NCBI RefSeq assembly: GCF_022848905.1
Contig: NZ_JAFIRA010000019.1
Location: forward strand, 1-59,890
Source: Thermostichus vulcanus str. 'Rupite'
GTDB lineage: Bacteria > Cyanobacteriota > Cyanobacteriia > Thermostichales > Thermostichaceae
DNA: 59,890 nt
Direction of reading: 5' to 3'
The position numbers and the translations under genes are program-made. Each line of letters starts with the position of its first letter. The first letter of the stretch is position 1. The notes below the pieces were generated by a model, which worked only from the letters and a program-made list of their open reading frames with translations, was not told the origin of the DNA and did no database searches. Of this stretch, positions 47,187 through 59,890 are shown piece after piece.

Positions 47187-47888
47187 ATGTTATCCACACC
47201 AACCCGGATCCCACCGCTAGAAAGTGGCGACCATCTCAGTCGTGCTGAATTTGAGCGGCGCTATGAAGCCATGCCGGATCTCAAAAAAGCAGAACTGGTG
47301 GAAGGAGTGGTTTATATGGGATCCCCGTTGCGAGTTAGAAGCCATGGTGAGCCACACGCTAATTTACTGATCTGGTTAGGAGTCTACAAAATTAGCCTTC
47401 CTGGTCTTGTTCTTGCTGACAATCCGACTGTGCGGATGGATGCCAAGAATGAGCTTCAGCCGGATATTGTTTTGTTTGTGCCCGGTCAACAAGCCATGAT
47501 TTCCGAGGATGATTATATTGAGGGCAGCCCTGAATTGATTGTTGAGATTGCCGCCAGTTCTGCTTCGCTGGATTTACATGAAAAGAAAGAGGTTTATCGC
47601 CGCAATCAAGTGCGAGAGTACATTGTTTGGCGCACCTTGGAGGGAGGATTAGATTGGTTTACCCTGCAAGCGGGAAGTTATAGTTCTCTGGAACCTGACG
47701 AAAACGGGATCCTAAAATGTGCCACCTTCCCAGGCTTATGGCTGGATAGACAGGCGCTTCTTAACCAACAGATGACACGCGTCTTAGAAGTGCTACAACA
47801 AGGGATCCAGTCTCCTGAGCATTCTAAGTTTGTTCAACTTGTTCAACAGGTACCCCAGGAAATTAAGGGAGAGGAGTCAAATTCATGA
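47187..47888 (+). CDS. Uma2-family (DUF820) restriction-endonuclease-like protein
   Basis: 233 residues, start with GAGG upstream. The PD-(D/E)xK fold is visible: KKAELVEGVVYMGSP, LQPDIVLFVPG (Asp) and ELIVEIAASSASLDLHEKK (Glu and Lys). The family is very abundant in cyanobacteria and unassigned; many copies may be mobile. The stop overlaps the next start by 4 bp, so it is coupled to the 2Fe-2S protein gene. Confidence 0.9.
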   Translation: MLSTPTRIPPLESGDHLSRAEFERRYEAMPDLKKAELVEGVVYMGSPLRVRSHGEPHANLLIWLGVYKISLPGLVLADNPTVRMDAKNELQPDIVLFVPGQQAMISEDDYIEGSPELIVEIAASSASLDLHEKKEVYRRNQVREYIVWRTLEGGLDWFTLQAGSYSSLEPDENGILKCATFPGLWLDRQALLNQQMTRVLEVLQQGIQSPEHSKFVQLVQQVPQEIKGEESNS

Positions 47889-50008: not shown

Positions 50009-53000
50009 GTTTCCATTAATTCCACTTCCCCGAAGAGAAGCGAGCCGAGTGGTATTTTGCTCCCCGACCAGCGGTGGAACGTTTCCATTAATTCCACTTC
50101 CCCGAAGAGAAGCGAGGTCCAGTGGGTGGTAACCTTCGCAAAGGTTACTAACCTAATTGTTTCCATTAATTCCACTTCCCCGAAGAGAAGCGAGCCGATC
50201 CCAGAGGAGGAGATTGTGGCGGCCTATTAGTTTCCATTAATTCCACTTCCCCGAAGAGAAGCGAGTCCAGAAGCGTTTCCCCACCATCCCCGAAGCCCAG
50301 GTTTCCATTAATTCCACTTCCCCGAAGAGAAGCGAGTAGGGCGGAAGATCGTCCCACCACTAGGGCAATTAGTTTCCATTAATTCCACTTCCCCGAAGAG
50401 AAGCGAGAGCTTGCGATTTTGCGCTTGACGGATGCTGGCAGAATGTTTCCATTAATTCCACTTCCCCGAAGAGAAGCGAGTAGGGCGGAAGATCGTCCCA
50501 CCACTAGGGCAATTAGTTTCCATTAATTCCACTTCCCCGAAGAGAAGCGAGAGAAAGGCTGTAGGGAAAGACGGTTCCGTCGCAGGTTGTTTCCATTAAT
50601 TCCACTTCCCCGAAGAGAAGCGAGTAACTTGCCGTGTGACGAGGCTAGCCAGAAGTTGTGTTTCCATTAATTCCACTTCCCCGAAGAGAAGCGAGTACGA
50701 AACAGAATGTGTCCCCTACGGTAGGGGGTATATATGTTTCCATTAATTCCACTTCCCCGAAGAGAAGCGAGGAAAATCACTGGCCCTGACCATACCCAAT
50801 GGATTGGTTTCCATTAATTCCACTTCCCCGAAGAGAAGCGAGATGGTACGGTTAGCCGTAGCGGTCAACCCCTCCTCAGTGGTTTCCATTAATTCCACTT
50901 CCCCGAAGAGAAGCGAGCAGTCAGGAAGCACTTGCCACCTGTAGCAGCAACTTGTTGGGGTTTCCATTAATTCCACTTCCCCGAAGAGAAGCGAGGCGCG
51001 TGAAGCGGTTTCAAGAGCGTTTTCCGAACGCAGTTTCCATTAATTCCACTTCCCCGAAGAGAAGCGAGCGTGTACGTGGTGCATAAAAAAACCCTGCCGT
51101 GGGGGTTTCCATTAATTCCACTTCCCCGAAGAGAAGCGAGGATTTTGAGCTTTTGTGTTCACGGCTTGATAGGTTGCTGTTTCCATTAATTCCACTTCCC
51201 CGAAGAGAAGCGAGTCGCCCAGCTTAAGCCCCTCACCGCTCTCGTTCGTGTTTCCATTAATTCCACTTCCCCGAAGAGAAGCGAGTCATTGAGCAAAAGT
51301 GTAGTCGACAAATTCTCACTCACAGTTTCCATTAATTCCACTTCCCCGAAGAGAAGCGAGTTCCCCTTTAGCAGTTATGGACAGCTACAGGAAAAACTGT
51401 TTCCATTAATTCCACTTCCCCGAAGAGAAGCGAGCGGATCACTCAGGCAAGATTAGTGCCTATTCTAGGCGTTTCCATTAATTCCACTTCCCCGAAGAGA
51501 AGCGAGAAACTCAATTGTTTTATTTTCGGGCAGCGAAGATTGTAGTTTCCATTAATTCCACTTCCCCGAAGAGAAGCGAGCTTGTGTGCTGTGGCGCCAG
51601 TGGATCATGGCCGAATAGGTTTCCATTAATTCCACTTCCCCGAAGAGAAGCGAGAGGCTAAACAAGCTCTGCTCCAAATTCGCCAGAAGAAAAGTTTCCA
51701 TTAATTCCACTTCCCCGAAGAGAAGCGAGACGGGACGGAAAGTTGTCGACCCTTTGGGCCAACTGTGTTTCCATTAATTCCACTTCCCCGAAGAGAAGCG
51801 AGTTCGCGCAAGCGGAGAAAAAGCGCAGAGACGGCTCAGGTTTCCATTAATTCCACTTCCCCGAAGAGAAGCGAGGGCAGCCATTAAGTACTGGGGTAGC
51901 ATGGAACTAATCGTTTCCATTAATTCCACTTCCCCGAAGAGAAGCGAGCAAAGCGCTTTCAAAAGCGCTTTAATTCAGCAGACGAGTTTCCATTAATTCC
52001 ACTTCCCCGAAGAGAAGCGAGTTTATACTTACCGGATGATACCGGATGGATATGTTTACCGTTTCCATTAATTCCACTTCCCCGAAGAGAAGCGAGCAAC
52101 AATGGACAGCCGACTTTATTCAGGAGTGCAAAGTTTCCATTAATTCCACTTCCCCGAAGAGAAGCGAGGGCGAGTTTGCCCCCAGCCCGCGTAATCGAGT
52201 ACCACGTTTCCATTAATTCCACTTCCCCGAAGAGAAGCGAGAAGCCGAACGGAAACGAGCCAAGTTCAACAAAAAAGGTTTCCATTAATTCCACTTCCCC
52301 GAAGAGAAGCGAGGCCAACATTGAGACTTGCCTTCCCGCAGAAGGCAGCTGTTTCCATTAATTCCACTTCCCCGAAGAGAAGCGAGTAGAAAACTCGCTT
52401 CCACCAAGCCAAGTAATTGAGTTTGTTTCCATTAATTCCACTTCCCCGAAGAGAAGCGAGGGGTTAGAGGCGAGTTTGCCTCCAGCCCGAACAATGTTTC
52501 CATTAATTCCACTTCCCCGAAGAGAAGCGAGTTCGGACGGGACGAAAGATCGTCCCGCCTCTAGGGCGTTTCCATTAATTCCACTTCCCCGAAGAGAAGC
52601 GAGGGCACTGCCAGCCCACGGTTATTATAATGAACTCCATTTTCCATTAATTCCACTTCCCCGAAGAGAAGCGAGAACAGGAAAGAGAGAGGAGCCACTG
52701 GGCATCCTGTATTTTCCATTAATTCCACTTCCCCGAAGAGAAGCGAGATTCTCTTCTCTAGTCACACGCTCCCTTAATCACTTAAGATTTTCCATTAATT
52801 CCACTTCCCCGAAGAGAAGCGAGAAGAGGCACTCCAGTGGACAAACAATTTTATTCAATTTTCCATTAATTCCACTTCCCCGAAGAGAAGCGAGAAGGAA
52901 ATATCGTTCTATCTCGGAGCTTCCCAGCTCACATTTTCCATTAATTCCACTTCCCCGAAGAGAAGCGAGCACAAATTAAATCCAGTAGAGCCATTTTGAC

Positions 53001-56000
53001 CCTACGTTTTTCCATTAATTCCACTTCCCCGAAGAGAAGCGAGCAGGCAGCCTTGCCCGCACCTAAGACGATCGAGTATCTTTTCCATTAATTCCACTTC
53101 CCCGAAGAGAAGCGAGAAGGTTAATCGGATTACCTTCCGGTGATACCAATAAATAGCGTTTTCCATTAATTCCACTTCCCCGAAGAGAAGCGAGAGAGCA
53201 TCTAAAGCTCTACATTCGCTCCATATCGATTTTCCATTAATTCCACTTCCCCGAAGAGAAGCGAGTGGACGCAACGAGACGCCTCTAGGTACCCTGTGCG
53301 TTTTCCATTAATTCCACTTCCCCGAAGAGAAGCGAGGTTTGAGCTACTGTCACCATTGGAGCTACCGGACCTGTCTTTTCCATTAATTCCACTTCCCCGA
53401 AGAGAAGCGAGTCTGTCTAAAGCCAAAGACTTCTTAGACAAGGGGCTGTTGTCACTTTTCCATTAATTCCACTTCCCCGAAGAGAAGCGAGGGCAAGAGA
53501 AAAAAGCCCTTATTTCGTCTTTGCCCGTTTTCCATTAATTCCACTTCCCCGAAGAGAAGCGAGTATTCTGAGCTGCAAGACTGCATCCGTGCAGGCAATT
53601 TTCCATTAATTCCACTTCCCCGAAGAGAAGCGAGCCACCTAACCCTGCTTCACAGCAGGGTTTTTTTATGTTTCCATTAATTCCACTTCCCCGAAGAGAA
53701 GCGAGCCCGGACTTGCGCCACTAGCCGTATTAGTACTGGTAATAGTTTCCATTAATTCCACTTCCCCGAAGAGAAGCGAGGAGAGAGAAATGGCTATAAC
53801 CACAACGCAGGAAGTAATGTTTCCATTAATTCCACTTCCCCGAAGAGAAGCGAGTAAGACGATTGAAGTGCACCTTGACTAACACCAACTGTTTCCATTA
53901 ATTCCACTTCCCCGAAGAGAAGCGAGGGACGAAGAAGAGTTCTACCAGTGGCTCAAACAACAAGTTTCCATTAATTCCACTTCCCCGAAGAGAAGCGAGC
54001 CTACGACAATCAAAGTATTCTATCAGCACTTGGTATAGAGTTTCCATTAATTCCACTTCCCCGAAGAGAAGCGAGATGTCATCGTGATCTAACCTAATCA
54101 TGTCCCTACCCCGTGGTTTCCATTAATTCCACTTCCCCGAAGAGAAGCGAGCCTGAAGGAGAATGAAGATGGCAGTAGTGAAGCTAAATTGTTTCCATTA
54201 ATTCCACTTCCCCGAAGAGAAGCGAGAAGTGACACAGTCGTTGTAGCATTACCAGGGCTAGCTCCCGTTTCCATTAATTCCACTTCCCCGAAGAGAAGCG
54301 AGAGGATTGATCACGCTCTCCCTTAGTAGAGGAGAAAAAGGTTTCCATTAATTCCACTTCCCCGAAGAGAAGCGAGTTGGGGTAGAGATGCCTGTAAGTC
54401 GCGCTTTTCTTGCCTGTTTCCATTAATTCCACTTCCCCGAAGAGAAGCGAGACGGGTTGGTAATTTGGATCAGCGAAACAAGCGGAATTGTTTCCATTAA
54501 TTCCACTTCCCCGAAGAGAAGCGAGGAAAAGTGGCGGGTTGGACTTTGGCGGTTGTCAAGTTTCCATTAATTCCACTTCCCCGAAGAGAAGCGAGTGGCA
54601 CTCATTCTTGGGATACCAAAGAAAAGCTAAGGTTTCCATTAATTCCACTTCCCCGAAGAGAAGCGAGCAGAGAGTGCGCCAAGAGAAGCGAGCACTTAGC
54701 GAGGTTTCCATTAATTCCACTTCCCCGAAGAGAAGCGAGCAGATTTTGTCGAACAGGCGAAGTCCGCCTTGCTGTGTTTCCATTAATTCCACTTCCCCGA
54801 AGAGAAGCGAGGCAAGAGCAGTTCGAGCTAGGTCTGGAGGAAGTGTGGTGAAGGGTTTCCATTAATTCCACTTCCCCGAAGAGAAGCGAGCACGTAACTC
54901 ACTTTGCAGGTCTTAATTGGGAGATCCGTTTCCATTAATTCCACTTCCCCGAAGAGAAGCGAGGAGGCCAAGACCTGGGCCGAAGGTTTCATCTCTGAGT
55001 TTCCATTAATTCCACTTCCCCGAAGAGAAGCGAGTAGCAGCCTTAGAGCAAGCAGAGGACGATTACTTCAGTTTCCATTAATTCCACTTCCCCGAAGAGA
55101 AGCGAGCCGTACCTGGCACGTTCGAACCGCTACCGACTTGGTACGTTTCCATTAATTCCACTTCCCCGAAGAGAAGCGAGTGTCCTTATATCTTTGGAGA
55201 GGACTTATCCCCAACATGGGGTTTCCATTAATTCCACTTCCCCGAAGAGAAGCGAGATTAATAAACAGTTCAAGAACCCCATTCCAGCTATGGTAGTTTC
55301 CATTAATTCCACTTCCCCGAAGAGAAGCGAGTACTGGGGGGACGAAGACGAAGAGAACGGTTATCGCGTTTCCATTAATTCCACTTCCCCGAAGAGAAGC
55401 GAGCACTCCCACCAGGGCAGGTAATTGAGTTTCATTTTGGTTTCCATTAATTCCACTTCCCCGAAGAGAAGCGAGGCTGTGCAGGCAAACCGCCTTAGCG
55501 GCACTCGAAGTTTCCATTAATTCCACTTCCCCGAAGAGAAGCGAGAAGATCAAAAAGCAAGATATCAAGATCAAGAAGCAAAAGTTTCCATTAATTCCAC
55601 TTCCCCGAAGAGAAGCGAGGCTACCATGTAGAGGAGCTGAGTGTGATCGCTGAAGTTGTTTCCATTAATTCCACTTCCCCGAAGAGAAGCGAGAAATCTA
55701 TCTGGACATCAAAACGATCAGTTGGACGCTGTTTCCATTAATTCCACTTCCCCGAAGAGAAGCGAGAAAAATAAAAACCCCATAGGATTTAATCCCTATG
55801 GGGGTTGTTTCCATTAATTCCACTTCCCCGAAGAGAAGCGAGCGGATCGAATGTAGCATGGCATGTGTGTGGAGCTCAGTCTGTTTCCATTAATTCCACT
55901 TCCCCGAAGAGAAGCGAGACCGGAAGACGAGCTAGAGCGTAGAGCATCAAGGGTTTCCATTAATTCCACTTCCCCGAAGAGAAGCGAGTGGTTAAAGAAG

Positions 56001-59000
56001 TGTCGGCCGCTCTGCCGTGGCGTAATAAGCGGGTTTCCATTAATTCCACTTCCCCGAAGAGAAGCGAGAGGTTACAGCGGCCCCGAGAAGTTGGGTCAGG
56101 GAGGTTTCCATTAATTCCACTTCCCCGAAGAGAAGCGAGCTATTGGGGGGAATCATCGGATCGGGAAGGTTACCGGTTTCCATTAATTCCACTTCCCCGA
56201 AGAGAAGCGAGTTTTCCTCATTTCAGTAACGAAGTCCTTGCAGAGCTAAGTTTCCATTAATTCCACTTCCCCGAAGAGAAGCGAGAATCTACAAATACGC
56301 TAAGGATCTCTTCCCAGTTGTGGGTTTCCATTAATTCCACTTCCCCGAAGAGAAGCGAGTACCGAGTATCAGAGTCAATACGAAGAGTGGCGAGTGTTTC
56401 CATTAATTCCACTTCCCCGAAGAGAAGCGAGGAGAATCCATTCTCGGTCTCCGTGTTCAGATCGTTGATCAGTTTCCATTAATTCCACTTCCCCGAAGAG
56501 AAGCGAGAAGTAAAAGCCAAAAATACCGGAAGCTTTCTCTTCATCTGTTTCCATTAATTCCACTTCCCCGAAGAGAAGCGAGTGCACAAGGTTTCACTGA
56601 TTTATTCTGCTTATCGCTGTTTCCATTAATTCCACTTCCCCGAAGAGAAGCGAGGAGAGAGTGGACATGTCATGTGCCTTGCGCTCCAGAGTTTCCATTA
56701 ATTCCACTTCCCCGAAGAGAAGCGAGTAATATAGTTTACCCATACTATCAGACTTGATTGCCATCTTGGAGTTTCCATTAATTCCACTTCCCCGAAGAGA
56801 AGCGAGCGCGCTTTTAACGTGTTTAGTCACGGCTGTGGATTTCGTTTCCATTAATTCCACTTCCCCGAAGAGAAGCGAGTCTTTGTGAAATGGAAGTTCT
56901 CGCACAAGTTACAGTGTTTCCATTAATTCCACTTCCCCGAAGAGAAGCGAGCTCAAGAAATTGAGCATATAACACAGGCACGCTTGGTTTCCATTAATTC
57001 CACTTCCCCGAAGAGAAGCGAGCTGGACGCGCTAGACATCGTGGCGCAGGTCAAGGTCGTTTCCATTAATTCCACTTCCCCGAAGAGAAGCGAGCACTTC
57101 TGAGCCTTCGGAGAGACAAAAAAGCCCTCGAAGGTTTCCATTAATTCCACTTCCCCGAAGAGAAGCGAGAGAGACAAAAAAGCCCTCGAAGATTCGATTC
57201 CTGAGTGTTTCCATTAATTCCACTTCCCCGAAGAGAAGCGAGCCGGCCGATCGCGGTTTTGTCGGAGCGTGGGAATCTTTCCAGCGGGAAGTTTCCATTA
57301 ATTCCACTTCCCCGAAGAGAAGCGAGTATTATTCAGAGCTGCTCCCGGACATCCAAACCGGGTTTCCATTAATTCCACTTCCCCGAAGAGAAGCGAGTGA
57401 CTATTCCCTATCCTCCCTGGAAGTTAGGGAATTGTTGTTTCCATTAATTCCACTTCCCCGAAGAGAAGCGAGAGGTACGTGAAGTTTACGCAACCTTGGG
57501 TTGGCCCCCAAGTTTCCATTAATTCCACTTCCCCGAAGAGAAGCGAGTATGTGCGGAGACAGTTGCCTGGGGATAACCCCGGTTTCCATTAATTCCACTT
57601 CCCCGAAGAGAAGCGAGTTTGTGATCTATTAAAGCTATTTGAGAAAGTTTAGTAGAGTTTCCATTAATTCCACTTCCCCGAAGAGAAGCGAGTGAGACAT
57701 GGCGTCAACCGGCTGGCAGAAAGTGCAAAGTCGTTTCCATTAATTCCACTTCCCCGAAGAGAAGCGAGCTGGATTGGTTGATACTTCGCTCTCAAGTTGA
57801 CCCGCAAGTTTCCATTAATTCCACTTCCCCGAAGAGAAGCGAGAGGCGGCTTGTGGTGGCGCATAGAGCGTCCAATCTAGTTTCCATTAATTCCACTTCC
57901 CCGAAGAGAAGCGAGCGGGCGGAGAGTGACCGCACAATCCCTGCCCTTCTAGTTTCCATTAATTCCACTTCCCCGAAGAGAAGCGAGTTGGGTGCTTACT
58001 CTACTGTTGTCGGTTTGCTACAAGGTTTCCATTAATTCCACTTCCCCGAAGAGAAGCGAGTTATGGCTTCCAAAGCCTTGCACATGCTTCATATCGTTTC
58101 CATTAATTCCACTTCCCCGAAGAGAAGCGAGTTTAATAACAAATACCTACTTGTCTCTCAGTTGCCTGAGTTTCCATTAATTCCACTTCCCCGAAGAGAA
58201 GCGAGGCTTCACTTAAGCTTGATACGGGCTTAAGCGAAGTGTTTCCATTAATTCCACTTCCCCGAAGAGAAGCGAGGCGGCCAAGGTTGCCAAAGCGGGG
58301 CTGAATGCCCCGCTGGAGTTTCCATTAATTCCACTTCCCCGAAGAGAAGCGAGATAAACCGTATTTAATATATACCTAATCAAATCCCTTAAAGTGTTTC
58401 CATTAATTCCACTTCCCCGAAGAGAAGCGAGCCAAGTAAACAACCCAACGAGAACCGTAACACGGAACGAGAAGTTTCCATTAATTCCACTTCCCCGAAG
58501 AGAAGCGAGGCTCGAATAAGTATAGGCTAGGCTCCCACACGTGGGAGTTTCCATTAATTCCACTTCCCCGAAGAGAAGCGAGAGACTAGAGAGAAGATTC
58601 TCTCTGAACAAGAGGGCAGGGTTTCCATTAATTCCACTTCCCCGAAGAGAAGCGAGAACAGCTTTTACAAGTAATAATGATTGACTTAGATAGTTTCCAT
58701 TAATTCCACTTCCCCGAAGAGAAGCGAGCACTCTGAACTGGAAGACTCTATCCAGACAGGGAGAAGTTTCCATTAATTCCACTTCCCCGAAGAGAAGCGA
58801 GTTAGGTATTAGTCATAATCCAATGGCAAGGATAAATAGTTTCCATTAATTCCACTTCCCCGAAGAGAAGCGAGCGCGAGGGAAAAGGACTACTACTCCG
58901 AGCTGGAGGAGTTTCCATTAATTCCACTTCCCCGAAGAGAAGCGAGTGGCACACTCTGCGACCGGTGGGGTGAAAACTACAGGTTTCCATTAATTCCACT

Positions 59001-59761
59001 TCCCCGAAGAGAAGCGAGAACCAATATAAGCCTGGATCAGGATCTCCTGGAAGAGGTTTCCATTAATTCCACTTCCCCGAAGAGAAGCGAGTTCTCCCTA
59101 AAAACAGCAAAACTACGCTAGCACAACGTTTCCATTAATTCCACTTCCCCGAAGAGAAGCGAGCAAGCATCTGTACGAACTGGTAGTCCAGACCCAGGGC
59201 CATTTTCCATTAATTCCACTTCCCCGAAGAGAAGCGAGTACCTGGAATCGGGTTGTTACCCGCCAAGTTGGTGCATTTTCCATTAATTCCACTTCCCCGA
59301 AGAGAAGCGAGCTAACTGGACTCCGAGAGCAGAAACGTGATCAATAGGAAGTGGTTTTCCATTAATTCCACTTCCCCGAAGAGAAGCGAGGGAGCAGCCT
59401 GGCTGCCTCCACAACCGGTCCTGGATAGGTTTTCCATTAATTCCACTTCCCCGAAGAGAAGCGAGCGCGACCTAAACGGTTTCGGCCCCGACTCATCAGG
59501 CGGGTTTTCCATTAATTCCACTTCCCCGAAGAGAAGCGAGCGGACTCGTTGTCTACCAGCGTACCGAGATGAAACTTTCCATTAATTCCACTTCCCCGAA
59601 GAGAAGCGAGCAACTACTACCGGTTTCAGCGATTCCGGTAGTAGTTCTTTCCATTAATTCCACTTCCCCGAAGAGAAGCGAGAAACTGTCTTGAGCTCCG
59701 CCGAGCGCAAAGCTAGGATCGCCAGCTTTCCATTAATTCCACTTCCCCGAAGAGAAGCGAG
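50009..59761 (-). CRISPR. CRISPR array, 133 repeats and 132 spacers, no cas genes in the window
   Basis: The 36-bp repeat begins GTTTCCATTAATTCC on the plus strand and ends GAAGAGAAGCGAG, with a short CTTC/GAAG stem inside. I counted 133 copies (50009 to 59726) and saw no internal substitution except at the first base: G in copies 1-36 and 51-125, T in 37-50 and 126-130, C in 131-133. Spacers are 34-48 bp. On the minus strand the repeat ends GGAAAC, like the handle end of many cyanobacterial repeats, so I place transcription from right to left with the leader beyond the window. An ISL3 element interrupts the array two bases after copy 133. Confidence 0.98.
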
Positions 59762-59763
59762 AC

Positions 59764-59890
59764 GGCTCTCCTGGACTTATGGTGATCAAGGATTACTAAG
59801 GCCAGAAAGCTGCTAATAATCTGGCTCTGAAGTTAGTAATGTTGGTAAACCCATACCCTTGTCGCTTGATTACCTTGATCCGGTTGTTGA
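59764..59890 (-). mobile_element. ISL3-family insertion sequence, 3' end only (right copy)
   Basis: Reverse complement of positions 1-126 with one extra base at the edge. The IS end (GGCTCT) starts exactly after AC, two bases into what would be spacer 133, so the element was inserted inside the CRISPR array. The rest of the array and any leader should continue on the far side of the element. Confidence 0.85.
59796..59888 (-). CDS. ISL3-family transposase, C-terminal fragment (cut by window end)
   Basis: The same 30 C-terminal codons as at the left end, read on the minus strand into the window and stopping at 59796-59798. Identity with the left copy over all visible bases points to recent transposition or to a shared assembly path. 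Confidence 0.75.
   Translation of the reverse strand, partial: NNRIKVIKRQGYGFTNITNFRARLLAAFWP

Follow-up and report, generated by a model that had tools for sequence, protein, structure and literature searches.

Three earlier studies come closest to the locus described here. Heidelberg et al. (2009, PMC2612747) studied Synechococcus OS-A/OS-B′ spacers and a hot-spring virome, and found that spacers from arrays of the mat metagenome match a viral lysozyme-like gene; the differences among virome copies of the targeted gene are silent or conservative. In Thermus thermophilus, the strand bias of type III spacers was found to arise by selection, without RT-Cas1 (Artamonova et al. 2020, PMC7515739). 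Natural type III arrays, too, favour spacers that can base-pair with mRNA (PMC8482600), and type III interference requires a crRNA that can pair with the transcript (PMC5576922). The principle underlying our observations is thus already known from the 2009 and 2020 studies. The genus is the same as that of Heidelberg et al., and their 'type I' repeat recurs, unchanged, in another array of our genome (contig C10); their repeat table does not contain that of the present array. In their work the variants lay in virus reads compared against one spacer, whereas here the variants of a site are stored as separate spacers, commonly oriented, and can be read without virus sequence. Likewise, the Thermus study used laboratory infection with known phages, in contrast to the natural record of long divergence that is considered here; and where PMC8482600 took orientation from database protospacers, we took it from spacer-to-spacer comparison only.

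The window, i.e. the whole stretch of 59,890 nucleotides that was analysed, is the entire contig C19 of a 3.72 Mb genome in 120 contigs, whose host is a relative of the Yellowstone hot-spring Synechococcus OS-A/OS-B′. In its CRISPR array (50009-59761, minus strand), 132 spacers with lengths of 34-48 nt alternate with 133 repeats, each 36 nt long. The original prediction also counted 132 spacers, and gave the coordinates 50337-59574 for its families; the array starts further left, at 50009. Spacers 5 and 7 are one exact duplicate, leaving 131 distinct spacers. The repeat is GTTTCCATTAATTCCACTTCCCCGAAGAGAAGCGAG, with 111 exact copies, 19 that begin with T and 3 that begin with C. The first repeat base varies in blocks (52640-53634 and 59203-59761), with T in 14 successive copies, later in five more, and then C in the last three; this block-wise change is possibly a record of array growth. 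Two bases beyond the last repeat begins an insertion-sequence end (59764-59890, no strand assigned), which is also found at the opposite edge of the contig (1-126) and in about 15 places in the genome, often at contig ends. The insertion sequence thus interrupts the array either at its leader or shortly before it, and the leader end is absent from the contig. One reverse-strand copy of the array repeat is present elsewhere in the genome.

The minus-strand repeat, CTCGCTTCTCTTCGGGGAAGTGGAATTAATGGAAAC, folds into a UUCG-capped 9-bp hairpin of -11.2 kcal/mol, as compared to -2.8 kcal/mol for the plus strand, and ends in GGAAAC, as expected for an 8-nt handle of the type III kind at the 3′ end. 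Given this stable hairpin and the GGAAAC ending, the crRNA is predicted to be made from the minus strand, with the newest spacers rightmost. No effector or accessory genes adjoining the array were seen within the window, the leader end being cut off by the insertion sequence. Elsewhere in the genome there are four Cas10 palm matches, a III-B Cmr operon (Cmr2-Cmr6 with Cas1, on contigs C67 and C65) and I-E genes on contig C25. Two other arrays have repeats ending in GGAAAC, namely those of C2 (86 spacers) and C10 (59 spacers). By NCBIfam, the neighbours of the C10 array are Cas10/Cmr2, Csx10 and Csx7, and hence of type III-D, while Cas10/Cmr2 adjoins the C2 array and Cas8c, of type I-C, adjoins the C21 array (19 spacers, repeat ending GGAAC). 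In Nostoc and in another Synechococcus MAG, CARF/Csx1 genes lie next to related repeats. From the repeat end, the co-occurrence in the genome and these relatives, the III-B Cmr system is most likely the one that serves the array. Pfam assigns only a Cas1 domain to the III-B Cas1 (L016:7388-8776); the roughly 130 residues before that domain have no Pfam match, and may reflect a wrong start or a fused domain.

Six-frame translations of the 131 distinct spacers were scored against one another in all pairs, ungapped, with BLOSUM62; 40 dinucleotide-preserving shuffles served as the control. Pairs scoring at least 34, 36, 38 and 40 numbered 19, 14, 11 and 9, respectively, against 1.32, 0.35, 0.15 and 0.03 expected from the shuffles (with a maximum of one pair at the last threshold). 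The original prediction held that different spacers spell the same short peptides with silent changes, and proposed six-frame translation against randomised spacers as the check; both the claim and the check come out in its favour, with observed matches far in excess of the controls. At 28, the lowest score listed, chance alone yields about 25 pairs in the shuffles. It is mainly the excess of peptide matches over the shuffles that argues for the spacers being coding. The GRK, LPP, ASKALH, YWG, QWT and SEL groups hold up, and KRF and SNR are probable.

Five spacers had been proposed to share LPPxxVIE, and all five are found on the plus strand: spacers 30 (52169-52205, ASLPPARVIEYH), 33 (52387-52424, ENSLPPSQVIEF), 34 (52461-52495, EASLPPART), 42 (53044-53080, QAALPAPKTIEY) and 74 (55404-55439, LPPGQVIEFHF). 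A sixth, spacer 21 (51507-51544, QSSLPENKTIEF), lies on the minus strand. The GRKIVPPLG group had been put at four spacers, and GRK[IV]V.PLG is indeed read on the plus strand of spacers 5 (50337-50371, GRKIVPPLGQL), 7 (50481-50515), 24 (51730-51766, TGRKVVDPLGQL) and 35 (52532-52567, RTGRKIVPPLG); since 5 and 7 are identical, only three are distinct. The YYSEL group, for which four to five members were expected, consists of spacers 49 (53564-53598, YSELQDCIRAG), 100 (57327-57361, YYSELLPDIQT), 119 (58729-58765, HSELEDSIQTGR) and, weakly, 121 (58875-58910, AREKDYYSELE), all on the plus strand. Three predicted pairs, again on the plus strand, hold up against the shuffles: QWTxxFIQ in spacers 29 (52097-52132, QQWTADFIQECK) and 39 (52824-52858, EALQWTNNFIQ); ASKALHxLHI in spacers 44 (53195-53229, RASKALHSLHI) and 110 (58061-58095, MASKALHMLHI); and YWGx6GY in spacers 73 (55332-55367, YWGDEDEENGYR) and 84 (56140-56175, YWGESSDREGY). 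The ITQARL pair, spacers 20 (51435-51470, plus strand) and 95 (56952-56986), spans six residues only and scores below 28; it is not significant, and hence not supported, on its own.

Further families emerged on the plus strand. KRFQxRF is found in spacers 14 (50996-51032, RVKRFQERFPNA) and 27 (51949-51985, KRFQKRFNSA), and SN[RK]YRLG in spacers 70 (55107-55144, PYLARSNRYRLG) and 116 (58510-58546, SNKYRLG). A weak family, [ED]KKAL, comprises spacer 48 (53492-53527, QEKKALISSLP), the adjacent spacers 97 and 98 (57095-57206), which have 22 identical nt in common (LLSLRRDKKALEDSIPE), and, by a weak link on the minus strand, spacer 60 (54377-54415, RQEKRDLQASLPQ). Opposite-strand members are therefore present in two families, as spacers 21 and 60. 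Spacer 15 (51069-51104, minus strand) is terminator-like and resembles spacer 50 (53635-53669), which is read from the other strand. Temporal clustering of the families along the array was not significant (p=0.08 and 0.16).

The families also extend beyond this array. When the C2, C10 and C21 arrays and eleven OS-A/OS-B′ arrays were added (490 spacers, 15 arrays), 20 pairs scored at least 40 against 1.04 expected. Spacer 113 (58277-58317, plus strand, AAKVAKAGLNAPL) has a site in common with spacers of the two other type III arrays, forming the family KVAKAGLNAPLEAAK (C19_113, C10_29, C10_56 and C2_42). Spacer 31 (52242-52277, plus strand, AERKRAKFNKK) shares AERKRAxFNK with spacer 60 of the C2 type III array, and LDNLGFIFP links C2 and C10. 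SVYQVT[VI]FRHLE occurs in two OS-B′ arrays and RLV[TS]NSL in both OS-A and OS-B′. The I-C array (C21), with only 19 spacers, showed no link.

Within 31 curated pairs, which were partly chosen on peptide similarity, the differences fall at codon positions 3, 1 and 2 in 154, 69 and 48 cases, respectively, and 106 codons are silently changed. Pairs picked by nucleotide similarity alone show the same trend, which is not significant: the dominant phase holds 21 of 34 mismatches against 18.1 expected (123 of 2000 shuffles). By nucleotide score, this array has 16 pairs of at least 12 and 7 of at least 14, against 4.7 and 0.4 expected, and 7 nucleotide overlaps of at least 15 against 0.10. The expectation that nucleotide searches would miss the links therefore holds for about half of them, but about half are also visible by nucleotide comparison. 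Paired spacers mostly begin at different offsets, up to 14 nt apart, and hence are separate captures rather than drifted array duplicates. Taken together, the silent changes and the differing spacer ends support the proposal that, as the elements diverged, the array repeatedly sampled their shared conserved coding sites.

What goes beyond the original prediction is the shared orientation of matching spacers. Family members in this array, weak ones included, number 27 on the plus strand and 2 on the minus strand (p=1.6e-6). With all arrays turned so that their repeats begin GTTTCC, 23 of the overlaps found by nucleotide match only join spacers of like strand, as compared to 5 that join opposite strands (p=0.0009; 490 spacers, 15 arrays). 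A codon-usage strand caller, with an accuracy of 80% on host 37-mers and 37/54 on family members, assigns 297 of the 490 spacers to the plus strand (p=3e-6); when family members are set aside, the figure is 261 of 437 (p=6e-5). Outside the families of this array the plus excess is weak and not significant by this caller (59/101, p=0.11). The mRNA sense thus appears to lie mostly on the strand opposite the predicted crRNA, so that crRNAs would pair with target mRNA; both the families and the codon bias, read from the spacers only, point indirectly to such antisense crRNAs. Given that III-B and III-D cas genes are present and no reverse transcriptase was found, this arrangement fits type III immunity.

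We therefore regard the array, with good though not full confidence, as a type III store built by repeated, separate captures from the same conserved sites of diverged elements, in which the antisense captures were kept. Overlapping 34-48-nt pieces of the same coding sites were captured in separate events over time, from what would be numerous diverged lineages of related mobile elements. As these lineages differ by silent and conservative changes, the protection given by an old spacer would be weak in a relative's case, which would make a fresh capture at that site worthwhile again. Since it is transcripts that type III effectors recognise, a capture would be retained when its crRNA can pair, as antisense, with the mRNA; the retention of such captures would give a shared orientation without an orienting step at capture, with selection rather than acquisition setting the strand.

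The targets are most likely phages, although searches of phage records, of viral contigs and of six genomes from the genus turned up no protospacer. Phage records gave no credible match in a blastn search (E≤1) with spacers 1-84 and most of 85-132 as queries, nor did IMG/VR with degenerate patterns of the family peptides. A composite of family peptides gave 13 stretches that matched a pattern, none of them confirmed. QWTxxFIQ matched in six viral contigs, apparently by chance, none having a convincing second family; PHROGs searched with short composites returned nothing usable. In the host's own genome and five others of the genus, the spacers (about 80 of 131 queried) matched CRISPR arrays only, and composite peptides run against nine genomes of the order rose above noise only in this array. 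A birthday-type estimate of target size is too model-dependent to be relied upon: this array taken by itself gives 7-21 kb, and comparison between arrays gives 46-152 kb. The targets may, as originally suggested, form one undescribed phage family; 'fast-evolving' and 'old and diverse' targets would look alike in these spacers. The failure to find a phage match is also what would be expected of plasmids or transposons, sampled and oriented in the same way, and type III systems act on plasmids as well. Outside the arrays, however, no matching element was found in the host or the five genus genomes, and we hold this identity of the targets to be rather unlikely.

A different account of how the families grow is site-directed re-acquisition, in which an imperfectly matching type III crRNA guides new capture at the same site in a diverged virus, in place of independent sampling and selection. 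The frequency of linked pairs within this array is about 4.4-fold that found between the genome's three type III arrays (11/8515 versus 7/24069, p=0.002), and six spacers begin within about 13 nt of one another on one site. Different target sets for each array explain the within-array excess equally well, and guided capture seems to us improbable, if a little less so than the readings that follow.

An alternative source of the coding-sense bias would be a reverse transcriptase-Cas1 that makes spacers from RNA and so gives them a shared orientation at capture. No RVT_1 match was found in the 99.99%-complete genome, the III-B Cas1 carries only its Cas1 domain by Pfam, and a type III host free of reverse transcriptase shows the same bias by selection (PMC7515739); this route is very unlikely. 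Capture of RNA from RNA viruses was dropped as a candidate, no reverse transcriptase having been found in the genome. Duplication of spacers within the array, followed by mutation, does account for the exact duplicate of spacers 5 and 7, but it requires identical ends and evenly spread changes, which are not seen: the members' ends differ along the shared site, some members are on the opposite strand, many differences are silent, and the repeats around them are nearly invariant. With silent change and differing ends against it, we give duplication scarcely any weight. Chance, by which 36-nt spacers in six frames would often share short peptides, does produce weak matches in the range of ITQARL and several other pairs, but as the source of the strong families it is refuted by their excess over the shuffles, both in peptide pairs and in nucleotide overlaps, and has the least credence of all.

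Spacers can thus be linked to each other, with coding frame and strand, even when virus sequence is lacking, an advantage where databases hold no match for most spacers. The elements infecting these cyanobacteria have apparently conserved certain protein sites while their nucleotide sequences diverged deeply. The families supply short peptide and DNA probes for locating such elements in hot-spring viromes, and offer a testable case for the question of re-acquisition of type III spacers at sites already sampled.

Several minor observations should also be noted. By eye, spacers 2, 27, 50, 79, 112 and 131 (50117-50158, 51949-51985, 53635-53669, 55767-55806, 58206-58240 and 59611-59646) look like strong hairpins or terminators, which is unexpected if the targets are coding. 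PDC-S03/Uma2-like genes occur both within the III-B Cmr operon (L043:1198-1785) and a few genes before the array (47187-47888). In Synechococcus sp. M44_DOE_062 (L058:889-1485), no array is left, and all that survives is a pair of such repeats behind a CARF-domain gene. Finally, a repeat nearly identical to that of the present array is scattered, singly or in twos and without a long array, over the OS-B′ chromosome (G005 C1, positions 380459, 574992, 1692612, 2471513, 2474052 and 2474124).
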